Assembly: GCA_028697555.1 (NCBI GenBank)
Contig: JAQVEX010000012.1
Coordinates: forward strand, 1 to 48,429
DNA length: 48,429 bases
Reading direction: 5' to 3'
Source of the DNA: Lentimicrobiaceae bacterium
GTDB taxonomy: Bacteria; Bacteroidota; Bacteroidia; Bacteroidales; UBA4417
Shown: one piece after another, positions 8,581-42,531 of the stretch
Numbering within the stretch: the first letter of the stretch is position 1
Layout: the number at the start of each line of letters is the position of its first letter
Translations under genes and position numbers: made by a program
Notes under the pieces: generated by a model
Told to the model about the DNA's origin: nothing
Seen by the model: the letters and a program-made list of their open reading frames with translations, nothing else
The model's database searches: none

Positions 8581-8991
8581 CTATTCTTCCTCTTTCTTTT
8601 CAGCTTCAGTTGATTCTTCTTTTGTTGCGGTTTTTTTAGCCTTAGGTTTAGTTTCTTTTTCTACTTCTTTTTTCTCAGCGGCTTTTTCTTTTACTTCTTT
8701 TTTCTCAGTAGCTTTCTCCGCTGCTTCTTTTTTTTCTGCTACTTTTTTCTCAGTAGCTTTTTCTGCTACTTCTTTTTTCTCCGCAACTTTTTTCTCAGTA
8801 ACTTTTTCTACTACTTCCTTTTTCTCAACAACTTTTTCAGCTACTTCTTTTTTTGCAGTTGCTTTTTTCACTTCTTTCACTTCGGCAGGTTTCTCAGCAA
8901 CAGTTTGTTTTTTAACTTTACGCTTGCGAGTAACACCGTAGCTACCCATAATTATTTTACCCCTTTTTGTTTTTTTATCGCCTTTTCCCAT
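8581..8991 (-). CDS. 30S ribosomal protein bTHX with long Lys/Glu/Ala tail
   Basis: The first 26 residues (MGKGDKKTKRGKIIMGSYG, then VTRKRK) are a full match to the small bacterial ribosomal protein THX, which sits in the 30S head among 16S rRNA helices. In known THX proteins little follows this core; here about 110 more residues consist almost wholly of K, E, A, V and T. A 15-residue unit of the form VAEKKE-[VA]-AEKATEKK is repeated nearly exactly, with more degenerate copies around it, mirrored in the DNA by a roughly 45-bp period. The tail is highly charged and probably helical. It may be a variable-length extension. The plus-strand reading frame across it is an antisense shadow. Confidence 0.85.
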   Translation of the reverse strand: MGKGDKKTKRGKIIMGSYGVTRKRKVKKQTVAEKPAEVKEVKKATAKKEVAEKVVEKKEVVEKVTEKKVAEKKEVAEKATEKKVAEKKEAAEKATEKKEVKEKAAEKKEVEKETKPKAKKTATKEESTEAEKKEEE

Positions 8992-9045: not shown

Positions 9046-9058
9046 GTAAAAATTTATT

Positions 9059-9112
9059 TGGTGATTGGTGATTAGTGATTAGTGGTCAGTGGTGGGTGAT
9101 TGGTGGTCAGTG
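9059..9112 (+). repeat. Heptamer array, TGATNGG family (left arm)
   Basis: Imperfect tandem units such as TGATTGG, TGATTAG and TGGTCAG on the plus strand. It faces, in inverse orientation, the array at 9120-9170, so the two could pair into a long imperfect hairpin. It lies upstream of the bTHX promoter. Confidence 0.8.
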
Positions 9113-9119
9113 AGTTTAC

Positions 9120-9170
9120 CATCCACCAGTCACCATTCACCATTCACTATCCTCTATTCACCATTCACCA
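9120..9170 (-). repeat. Heptamer array, TGATNGG family (right arm)
   Basis: Plus strand shows CACCATT and CACTATC-type units; the minus strand therefore reads TGAATGG. It ends three bases from the stop codon of the four-helix-bundle gene, and the TGA strand is that gene's coding strand. Confidence 0.85.
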
Positions 9171-9173
9171 TAT

Positions 9174-9530
9174 TTAATTTTTGACTTCTAATTTTCCTAT
9201 TAGAGCAAACAGTTGTTTCCTAATAATAGTTATCAGTTCAATAATGTCATCTATTGATTGTACGTATTTTTGGCGATAAGCTATTTCCACTTGAGTCTCT
9301 AATTCAGCTAAAGAACCAAGAGATATGTAGCAAAAATGAATGTATTCTTTTGTGTTCTTTCTATTAAATCCTTCTGCAATATTAGATGGAACGGAAATAG
9401 CACTTCTTTTTATTTGAGATGTTAGAGAAAATAATTCATCTTTGGGAAACTGTTTAGTTAATAAGTACACTTTATCAACTAAATCCATTGCATTATTCCA
9501 AACATCCATATCTCTAAATGAAATTACCAT
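9174..9530 (-). CDS. Four-helix-bundle protein, 23S rRNA-intervening-sequence (S23/bAvd-like) family
   Basis: A complete 118-residue protein. The blocks FRDMDVWNNAMDLVDKVY, FPKDELFSLTSQIKRSA, ISVPSNIAEGFNR and EYIHFCYISLGSLAELETQ are the standard signature of the family (DVW--A--L----Y, FP--E---L--Q--RA--S-P-NIAEG, F---A-GS--ELE-Q). Members are found inside intervening sequences of 23S rRNA in some spirochaetes and others, and are related to the Avd accessory protein of diversity-generating retroelements; their activity as stand-alone genes is not established. There is no 23S rRNA and no reverse transcriptase here. Both sides carry TGATNGG heptamer arrays, one three bases from its stop codon. 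Confidence 0.9.
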   Translation of the reverse strand: MVISFRDMDVWNNAMDLVDKVYLLTKQFPKDELFSLTSQIKRSAISVPSNIAEGFNRKNTKEYIHFCYISLGSLAELETQVEIAYRQKYVQSIDDIIELITIIRKQLFALIGKLEVKN

Positions 9531-9583
9531 GCCATTGTTTTTTTATTAGTTATTAGCGTTCTATGAAACACTCCACGTATTAC

Positions 9584-9645
9584 ACACCCATCACTATCCA
9601 CCCATCACCATTCACCATTCACCACTCACCAACCACCATTCACTA
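9584..9645 (-). repeat. Heptamer array, TGATNGG family, abutting the S9 peptidase stop
   Basis: Plus-strand CACCATT/CACCCAT-type units run without a break up to the TAG stop of the peptidase gene (9643-9645). On the minus strand the first bases after the stop already read TGAATGGTGG. It forms the second flank of the four-helix-bundle gene. Confidence 0.85.
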
Positions 9646-11673
9646 CTTCAGCCACATATCTAGCCAATTAAAAAACTCTCGTTGCCACATAACGCTATTT
9701 TGGGGACGAAGTACCCAGTGGTTTTCTTCATGGAAATGCAAGTATCTGGCAGGTACATTATTTAATCTAGCTGCGTTAAATGCTGCAATTCCTTGTGTAT
9801 ATGGTATTCTGAAATCGTATTCGCCTTCAATTATCAAAATAGGAGTGTCCCACTTGTGGACAAATTTATGAGGCGAATTGGCGTATGAATGCTTTACTTT
9901 GTCATTGTTTTCCCAGTACGCACCGCCCAAATCCCAATTTACAAACCACATCTCTTCGGTTGCTACATATTGTTGTTCCAAATTAAACATTCCGCAATGC
10001 GAGATAAATGCTTTAAAGCGTTTGTCGTGGTTACCTGCCAACCAAAACACAGAAAAGCCGCCGTAGCTTGCTCCAATAGCACCTAATTTGTCTTCATCAA
10101 CGTAGGGTTCTTTTGCCATTTCGTCAATTGCGACAAGGTAATCCTTCATGTTTTGTCCGCCATAGTCGCCGCTAATTTGGTCGTTCCATTCCTGACCGAA
10201 ACCCGGAACGCCGCGCCTGTTAGGTGCAACAACAATATAACCATTGGCAGCCATCATTTGAAAATTCCAACGATAAGAGAAAAACTGACTTACCATACTT
10301 TGCGGACCACCTTGACAGTAGAGTAGAGTAGGGTATTTTTTGTTGGCATCGAAATTTGGAGGTAAAATAATCCATGTTAGCATTTGTTTTCCGTCGGTGG
10401 TAGTTATCCAACGTTTTTCAACGCTTGCCGATGTAACGTCTTTTAAGATTTCGTCGTTGGTTTTAGATATTTTGGTTTGCTTGCCGTTTTCGCTTATTCT
10501 ATATACCTCAGTCGGCTCAAGCATTGATTGTTTTGTAGTTATTATGTCATTTCCGCATAACAAAATCGACAAATAGTCGTATTGGTCGGTGGTAATTTGT
10601 TTAAATGTTTTATTAGCCACATCTAGCTTGAAAATATGTTCGCATCCTTTATTCGGACTTATAAAATAAATATATTTATCGTCAGCCGACCAAACAAAGG
10701 AGCTTGCGTTGTTATCGAAATTTTCGGAATAATTAGTTGTGCGACCTGTGGCAAAATCGTGAATCATTATTCTATCTTTATCAGCTTCAAAGCCGTCGCG
10801 TTCCATGCTTCTCCAAACAATTTTATTGCCGTCGTGCGAAAAAACAGGGTCATGGTCATAACCCATCAATCCCTTTGATAGAACGGTCTCAGTGTTGGTT
10901 TGCAAGTCGTATAAATAAATTTCGGAGTTAGTGCTTTCCGAATACTCTTTTCCGTTAAGTTTTTTGCAGGTGTAAGCAATTTTATTTCCGTTGGGATGCC
11001 ATGCAATTTGCTCCATTCCACCCCATGGTTTCATTGGTGAGTCGAACTTTTGATTTAGCATAATGTCAGTTGCTTCTCCAATTTTATCTGTGCTAAAATC
11101 GGCGACAAAAATATGGTTGTAGCTATAATCCGACCACGAATCCCAATGCCTGTACATAAGGTCGTTTTCAATGCGAGCGTTTGCCTTTGGTAAGTCGGGG
11201 TGTATATCGTTAGGAGTTTCGTCTAATTTGATACGTTGAACAAATAGAATTTTTTTCCCATCGGGCGAAATTGAAAAGCCGCTAATATCATGGTCGGTAT
11301 TGCTTATTTGCACAGGATTTGAACCATCTGTCGAAGCACGCCAAATCTGACTTTTACCGTTTTTAGCCGACAAAAAGTAAATAAAGTTTTTATGAAAAAT
11401 TCCGTTGCCTTCGGAACCTTTAAAATCTGTTACTTTTTTTAAGTTATTACCGTCAATATCAACGGTATATAAATCTCTGTTGCCGGAATTTTCTTTCAGA
11501 TTATACCAAGAAACCCCGTAAATTAAGGTTTTATTATTTTCCGATAATTGCACATCGCTAACTCTGCCTAATTTCCAGAGTAATTCGGGAGTGTACACGT
11601 TGCTTTTGTTTTCTTGAGCAGAAATCATAATTGCCAAAATGGTTAATGTTAATACTAAAAATGTCTTTTTCAT
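9643..11673 (-). CDS. S9 family prolyl oligopeptidase (dipeptidyl-peptidase 5-like)
   Basis: A 676-residue exported serine peptidase. A signal peptide ends near residue 20 (MISAQEN). Residues about 30-400 form a beta-propeller with WD40-like PD40 repeats (FSISPDGKKILFV, IAWHPNGNKIAYT, VFSHDGNKIVW). The alpha/beta hydrolase domain follows: GASYGGF with nucleophile S536, EGEYDFRIP with D620, and HEENHWV with H652. The architecture and length match bacterial DPP5, which removes dipeptides from peptide N-termini in the periplasm of asaccharolytic Bacteroidales. The gene stands alone on the minus strand, bounded by repeat-rich spacers. Confidence 0.9.
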   Translation of the reverse strand: MKKTFLVLTLTILAIMISAQENKSNVYTPELLWKLGRVSDVQLSENNKTLIYGVSWYNLKENSGNRDLYTVDIDGNNLKKVTDFKGSEGNGIFHKNFIYFLSAKNGKSQIWRASTDGSNPVQISNTDHDISGFSISPDGKKILFVQRIKLDETPNDIHPDLPKANARIENDLMYRHWDSWSDYSYNHIFVADFSTDKIGEATDIMLNQKFDSPMKPWGGMEQIAWHPNGNKIAYTCKKLNGKEYSESTNSEIYLYDLQTNTETVLSKGLMGYDHDPVFSHDGNKIVWRSMERDGFEADKDRIMIHDFATGRTTNYSENFDNNASSFVWSADDKYIYFISPNKGCEHIFKLDVANKTFKQITTDQYDYLSILLCGNDIITTKQSMLEPTEVYRISENGKQTKISKTNDEILKDVTSASVEKRWITTTDGKQMLTWIILPPNFDANKKYPTLLYCQGGPQSMVSQFFSYRWNFQMMAANGYIVVAPNRRGVPGFGQEWNDQISGDYGGQNMKDYLVAIDEMAKEPYVDEDKLGAIGASYGGFSVFWLAGNHDKRFKAFISHCGMFNLEQQYVATEEMWFVNWDLGGAYWENNDKVKHSYANSPHKFVHKWDTPILIIEGEYDFRIPYTQGIAAFNAARLNNVPARYLHFHEENHWVLRPQNSVMWQREFFNWLDMWLK

Positions 11674-31254: not shown

Positions 31255-31337
31255 TTAGCTGTTGGCTGTTAGCTTTTGGCTCTTAGCCATTAGCTAGATT
31301 TTGCCAACGGCTAAAAGCTAAAGGCTAACGGCTAAAA
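31255..31337. repeat. Two inverted heptamer arrays, TNTTRGC family
   Basis: Bases 31255-31294 read TAGCTGT-TGGCTGT-TAGCTTT-type units on the plus strand, starting 38 nt after the hisS stop. Bases 31303-31337 hold the reverse form (CCAACGGCTAAAAGC), pointing back from the sensor-kinase side. The two arms can pair into an imperfect hairpin of about 30 bp. Confidence 0.85.
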
Positions 31338-31343
31338 ACCCCG

Positions 31344-31388
31344 CATCACCCATCACCATTCACCATTCACCATTCACTATTCACCCAT
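31344..31388 (-). repeat. Heptamer array, TGATNGG family, overlapping a gene's 3' end
   Basis: Plus-strand CATCACC/CACCATT/CACTATT units; the minus strand reads TGAATGG. The array runs through the TAG stop of the sensor kinase (31377-31379) and covers its last codons, GTG ATG GGT GAA. Confidence 0.88.
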
Positions 31389-35969: not shown

Positions 35970-36043
35970 TCTGTTGGCTTTTAGCTCTTAGCTCTTGGCT
36001 GTTGGCTTTTGGCTCATAGCCGTTGGCTGAGTAAGCTAAAAGC
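35970..36043 (+). repeat. Heptamer array, TNTTRGC family
   Basis: The spacer 35910-36240 (331 bp) between two converging genes holds no gene but several repeats. This one has about nine units of the form T-N-TTRGC (TTTTAGC, TCTTAGC, TCTTGGC, TGTTGGC, TTTTGGC, TCATAGC, CGTTGGC) on the plus strand, ending in an inverted fragment AAGCTAAAAGCC at 36033-36044. Confidence 0.88.
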
Positions 36044-36143: not shown

Positions 36144-36170
36144 AACCCGCAACCCGTAACCCGCAACTCG
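36144..36170 (-). repeat. Heptamer array, AACCCGY family
   Basis: AACCCGC, AACCCGT, AACCCGC and a partial fourth unit, ending about 70 nt from the yebC stop. It has the same 7-bp period with an unrelated unit sequence. Confidence 0.8.
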
Positions 36171-42462: not shown

Positions 42463-42491
42463 CATTAAAACATTAAACATTAAACATTATA
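42463..42491 (+). repeat. Short heptamer array CATTAAA
   Basis: CATTAAAA, CATTAAA, CATTAAA, CATTATA directly after the gyrA stop. It is A+T-rich and short, so it is less secure than the other heptamer arrays. Confidence 0.5.
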
Positions 42492-42531
42492 AATTATAAC
42501 AAATAACATTAAATCACAAAAATTTTAAACC

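Follow-up and report, generated by a model that had tools for sequence, protein, structure and literature searches.

Genes of the S23 family (PF05635) between inverted arrays of short repeats: candidate small genetic elements akin to REPtrons and 23S rRNA intervening sequences

Genes of the S23 (23S-IVP) family, PF05635, are often bracketed by inverted arrays of short repeats, and this bracket is a property of the family as a whole. The case from which we start lies in a window of 48,429 nt, which is the entire contig C12 of a 2.33-Mb assembly. We consider positions 9058-9643 of this window to be, probably, a copy of a small genetic element that is widespread and resembles REPtrons or the intervening sequences (IVS) of 23S rRNA, and that may move, or may once have moved, as a unit.

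The S23 gene of the window and its arrays

The gene (9174-9530, minus strand) encodes a four-helix-bundle protein of 118 residues, with matches to PF05635 (3.5e-36) and TIGR02436 (2.5e-35). Its PF05635 score of 124 bits, against a curated cutoff of 33.8, places it within the family; the nearest solved structure is PDB 2gsc (XCC0516 of Xanthomonas campestris; 7.6e-25). S23 and Avd, which assists the reverse transcriptases of diversity-generating retroelements (DGRs), are homologous four-helix bundles (PMC10053308), and the window protein gives weak hits below the cutoffs of both Avd profiles (24.1 bits against 80 for DivGenRetAVD, 27.7 against 40 for bAvd). Profile search detected no catalytic or nuclease domain in S23. 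The dN/dS ratio between the window gene and its paralogue is 0.19, within an overall range for S23 of 0.03 to 0.19; the gene is under purifying selection and is therefore more than filler. A search of 50,697 phage records for a phage origin of the element gave 0 matches.

Upstream of S23 lies a dipeptidyl-peptidase Dpp5 (S9) gene (9643-11673, minus strand; NCBIfam NF053518, 990 bits), and downstream a bTHX-like gene with a long Lys/Ala/Glu-rich tail (8581-8991, minus strand; TIGR04560, 3.7e-13 over residues 1-25). Both point in the same direction as S23. Rfam finds two tRNAs in the window and nothing else, hence no rRNA, and S23, sitting between Dpp5 and bTHX, is outside any 23S rRNA gene. The tail of the bTHX-like protein, encoded by imperfect repeats of 15, 30, 45 and 75 nt, shows weak similarity to histone H1-like HC2.

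Three arrays flank the gene. The upstream arm (9585-9643, minus strand; TRF and sequence) is a heptamer array of TGAATGG and TGATGGG units, G-rich on the S23 sense strand; its near end lies 55 nt ahead of the ATG, and its far end takes in the first base of the stop codon of Dpp5 (9643-9645). An inner downstream array (9118-9171, minus strand; TRF and sequence), also G-rich on the sense strand, begins 2 nt past the S23 stop codon, and beyond it lies the outer downstream arm (9058-9105, plus strand; TRF), a heptamer array that is C-rich on the sense strand and inverted with respect to both others. Along the S23 sense strand one thus meets the stop codon of Dpp5, a G-rich array, S23 itself, a second G-rich array, the C-rich array and finally the bTHX-like gene. 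The outer arrays are inverted around S23: the G-rich arm ahead of the gene has its reverse complement in the outermost arm behind it. The two downstream arrays, being of opposite orientation, form a predicted hairpin of -50.6 kcal/mol (z -7.1).

The original prediction held that an S23-like gene is bounded by heptamer arrays on both sides, and the three TRF arrays and the PF05635 match bear this out. It also named the repeat TGATNGG. Here the period-7 arrays are real, but the strict motif occurs 21 times in the window against 14.6 expected, barely over chance, and the true unit at this locus is degenerate (TGAATGG, TGATGGG, TGGTTGG). Counts of strict TGATNGG were replaced by tests that assume no unit, namely a period score and an alignment of flanks. 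The bracket itself had been recognized; what had been overlooked is that its arms are inverted, that each element has a unit of its own, that the arms have a G-rich/C-rich polarity, and that the pattern extends beyond TGATNGG.

Short-period arrays beside S23 genes across genomes

Period-7 arrays occur in the source genome at 21 per 100 kb, with almost none at period 6, 8 or 9, and shuffled DNA yields no arrays. This genome has seven PF05635 genes, and short-period arrays bracket six of them. There are about five different units: the window gene and L010 have a TGATGGG-like one, L011 has AGTCGGA, L012 a GAGTTCT-like and L014 a GTGCGTG-like unit, and L013 has AGTTTAA. All of these units are present on both sides of their own S23 gene. 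No arrays were found at L049/L015, the most distant of the seven genes at 45 bits. Across the source genome, 61 of 141 arrays match the unit of a resident S23 gene, against 22 expected with scrambled units. Arrays without S23 outnumber those with it, and the commonest family sampled, the AGCTGTTGGC-type unit with 22 arrays, has no resident S23. The window also contains S23-less heptamer arrays of several units (174-211, 1835-1934, 31255-31384, 35971-36014, 36144-36170 and 42468-42508). A small sample of 220 kb from six S23-less genomes of the source order held no arrays.

To compare the flanks of homologues, the 200 nt ahead of each gene were aligned locally with the reverse-complemented 200 nt behind it. 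Among 51 PF05635 genes from the source genome and its relatives, 23 reached a flank score of at least 16, as did 9 of 585 other genes serving as controls (Mann-Whitney U, 1.5e-16); direct-repeat scores separated S23 from other genes in this sample far less than inverted scores did. These counts overstate independence, because some of the relatives' genes are orthologous (e.g., at sdhA-sdhB). A second sample is far more diverse: when GTDB genomes were scanned with an alignment of S23, 80 loci turned up in about 20 phyla, where 43 of the 77 S23 genes scored, and 2 of 165 other open reading frames of those loci, reached at least 14 (Fisher, 6e-24). When both samples were pooled, 73 of 128 genes passed with their own partner flank, and 1.1 would be expected with flanks re-paired between elements. 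Five of six S23 loci on cyanobacterial plasmids score at least 15. The unit is mostly 7 nt long, with lengths of 8 and 9 in some elements, and in about 40% of S23 genes paired arms cannot be detected. The S23 gene at L333 (genome G129) is flanked by a longer repeat, CTGGGGAACG, with variable small palindromes, unlike the short-period arms.

The arms also have a polarity. On the sense strand, 40 of 51 upstream arms are G-rich and 41 of 51 downstream arms C-rich. In the sample of about 20 phyla, where the flanking genes are co-directional, S23 points along with them in 43 cases and against them in 8. In the relatives, S23 is co-directional with both neighbours in 37 of 45. Frequent sites are gaps in core operons, with gene names taken by eye from translations and without family search: sdhA-sdhB, accB-accC, hisB-hisH, guaB-guaA, secD-secF and ruvA-ruvB. 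On plasmid pANA02 of Anabaena sp. 90 (L351), a type I-D CRISPR operon has an S23 element with inverted arms between its cas6 and cas4 genes.

Occupied and empty sites, and turnover of the unit

At fixed intergenic sites, whole S23 elements are found in some relatives and missing from others. The sdhA-sdhB spacer measures 1-50 nt in most genomes of the source order; it holds S23 with TTTAGGG-like arrays in five same-genus genomes, another S23 with a different unit in G034, and bare arrays only in the source genome, whereas G012 and G014 have a GxxExxY gene there, its arms ACGCAAAG-like. At L111:859-1490 (G012), this GxxExxY (PD-(D/E)XK) gene and its ACGCAAAG-like arms lie inside a remnant TTTAGGG array, so that elements of two kinds are nested at sdhA-sdhB. 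In most Xanthomonadaceae relatives the accB-accC spacer is empty and 5-13 nt long. With S23 and arrays in it, the spacer measures 440-470 nt, and in L300 and L306, where it holds gene-less inverted arrays (AGGGGCC-like), about 110-130 nt. The S23 genes at accB-accC form one clade (support 100/99), and this site therefore fits one old insertion followed by losses.

Within the source genome, the window S23 and the copy at L045 share 81% DNA identity from 12 bp before the ATG through to the array. Their neighbours are unrelated, and the likeness does not extend beyond the arms. The proposal that array, gene and array form a unit, perhaps a mobile or repeat-maintaining one, came with two checks. 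Repeats beside homologues were to be tabulated, and PF05635 proved strongly enriched for flanking arrays in all samples. A clean empty site was to be sought at the bTHX to S9-peptidase interval, and none was found among the relatives examined, because the sequence after Dpp5 differs in every one of them (synteny is lost). The enrichment and the presence or absence of whole units at fixed sites support the unit; movement we infer. No recent insertion with a target-site duplication was seen among the relatives compared, which are strongly diverged.

The arm unit is often a dispersed repeat of the host genome. AGTTCTC in two tandem copies has 186 matches in the L260 genome, whose S23 arm consists of that unit, and 0-15 in 42 others; two copies of GGGAATC occur 36-188 times in five Xanthomonadaceae and about zero times elsewhere. 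Of 45 Xanthomonadaceae-related genomes, 18 have S23 and 27 lack it; dispersed GGGRATC is present in 9 of the former and in none of the latter (p 5e-5), and seven of those nine carry S23 with GGGAATC arms. There are 34 dispersed GTGAATS dimers in the L221 genome, whereas the L232 genome has GTGAATS in its own array only and the unit is not dispersed. GTGATTG arrays lie away from S23 in G065 and G111.

We also considered a unit tied to the protein lineage. This holds only weakly, since units are replaced more quickly than the protein changes: the accB-accC clade has GGGAATC arms in part and GTGATTG arms in part, each on both sides. Similarity of units between elements is at background, and the arms agree within each element. 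The two arms thus change together, because the unit differs between elements but matches on both arms of each. This joint change is the strongest pointer to a copying or conversion mechanism and hints at one; selection for pairing could also produce it. Changes between the arms that are compatible with G.U pairing are not enriched (73 vs 114), which is evidence against a stem kept by selection in the sense RNA.

Likeness to known systems and possible mechanisms

Besides Avd, three known systems resemble the S23 elements. With RAYT/REP systems (REPtrons, REPINs) they share a gene enclosed by a short repeat in inverted copies, a repeat also dispersed in the host genome, intergenic placement and lineage-specific repeat families (PMC3733652); the REPtron trait of inverted flanking copies of a genome-dispersed repeat is found in S23 elements, with the L232 unit and the AGCTGTTGGC family as exceptions. 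In contrast, the RAYT gene is an HUH/Y1 tyrosine transposase and S23 is not, the S23 arms are tandem arrays of 7-9 nt rather than single palindromes with a GTAG tag, and in S23 elements the unit turns over while the gene stays. The IVS of 23S rRNA in Leptospira and Coxiella have the S23p protein family and inverted-repeat ends in common with them, and pairable ends are found here both by the flank tests and in the downstream hairpin. In Coxiella, tandem heptamers (GACAGAT) stand directly ahead of the S23p open reading frame, and RNase III excises the IVS (PMC4990558); this fits the array-S23 architecture, here at an rRNA site. Elements of the window type, however, occupy gaps between protein genes and not 23S rRNA, and neither of two conserved 23S motifs was present in any of 355 loci examined. 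S23 elements are accordingly REPtron- and IVS-like and belong to neither class, because the defining feature of each was looked for and found absent.

The third likeness is to the GGGAATC repeats of Xanthomonas and the TAACTGA repeats of Beggiatoaceae, which have period 7 and are intergenic, as S23 arrays are. The GGGAATC heptamers are G-rich on the sense strand just past stop codons and frequently form inverted pairs (PMC4692102). The bare arrays of the source genome follow this published placement rule, being G-rich on the sense strand just past a stop codon in 51 cases against 18, and C-rich just ahead of a start codon in 12 against 5. The arms of Xanthomonas S23 genes carry GGGAATC. The papers, however, link these repeats to no gene family and leave S23 unmentioned, and they ascribe the over-representation of heptamers to polymerase slippage (PMC4692102, PMC4679880). 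We found no report that links PF05635 to heptamer arrays in the open-access literature (subscription papers and most preprints lay outside the search).

As we picture it, the element would consist of a G-rich short-period array, an S23 gene and an inverted C-rich array, and would reside in intergenic gaps, mostly inside operons and along the direction of transcription. Gene-less arrays elsewhere in the genome would be its derivatives, as REPs and REPINs are to RAYT genes, and the element would move, or have moved, as a unit. Renewal would affect both arms at once, since in the accB-accC clade the gene is retained and its unit differs on either side alike. S23, a pentameric homologue of Avd, may bind its own repeat or the RNA of it and, because it has no known catalytic domain, would recruit host enzymes or enzymes acting in trans. 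We favour copying at the DNA or cDNA level at the hairpin arms; S23 is a structural homologue of Avd, so that a route through RNA and cDNA would be conceivable. More tentatively, and with odds that we put somewhat against it, S23 could be the trans-acting agent that creates, homogenizes and spreads short-period inverted arrays, in a selfish element without transposase whose non-catalytic pentamer recognizes its own repeat of 7-9 nt. If so, many orphan heptamer families of bacteria would be accounted for, and the 23S rRNA IVS would be one special landing site. PF05635 is a common family that lacks a known function, and catalogues of dispersed heptamer repeats give no cause for them; tying the one to the other makes both testable, and it offers a concrete hypothesis of why an S23 gene, inverted ends and heptamers occur in the 23S rRNA IVS.

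Other explanations have to be weighed against such an element. Chance, or a compositional artefact of a repeat-rich genome, has next to no probability left: at 21 period-7 arrays per 100 kb some genes of the source genome must adjoin arrays, but the controls refute this reading, with 73 brackets observed against 1.1 for cross-paired flanks, recurrence in about 20 phyla with different units, and empty and occupied orthologous sites at sdhA-sdhB and accB-accC. Alternatively, arms that pair in the transcript could let RNase III free the S23 segment from the operon mRNA, with S23 binding the stem, which would make insertion into operons tolerable. Such an IVS-like cassette for RNA processing is compatible with mobility. 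Sites within operons, the sense-orientation bias (43 against 8 in the wide sample, 37 of 45 in relatives), the strong predicted hairpin and the Coxiella precedent, with RNase III cutting and GACAGAT heptamers ahead of the S23 frame (PMC4990558), all speak for it; still, we regard it as unlikely, since G.U-compatible changes are not enriched and RNA processing alone explains neither dispersed arrays nor turnover of the unit.

Rather less likely again is that the arrays spread by themselves through slippage and recombination, with S23 a passenger carried by homologous recombination and the match between arms due to gene conversion among the arrays of one genome. Slippage has already been put forward for heptamer excess (PMC4692102, PMC4679880), S23 lacks a catalytic domain, S23-less arrays are the more numerous, and some dispersed families, such as AGCTGTTGGC, have no resident S23. 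Passengers, however, should be of any function, and bracketed genes belong to the S23, PD-(D/E)XK and Y1 families, with a bracket at about 0.7% of other genes. Moreover, the arms are inverted rather than direct, the G-rich arm comes first, and dispersed GGGRATC is absent from all 27 S23-less relatives.

An element that moves, or has moved, as a unit stays the reading that we prefer. S23, itself devoid of a catalytic domain, shares its bracket with nucleases and with a transposase of the RAYT type. Among the ten genes other than S23 whose flanks match best are three GxxExxY/PDDEXK_3 nucleases, two DUF559 genes and one Y1_Tnp (IS200-like transposase). A score of at least 14 is reached by 18 of 29 GxxExxY genes. 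Strongly matching repeat flanks are also seen at L067:1521-1964, L093:4952-5368 and L090:18690-19151, which are DUF559 (endonuclease-like) and Y1_Tnp genes.
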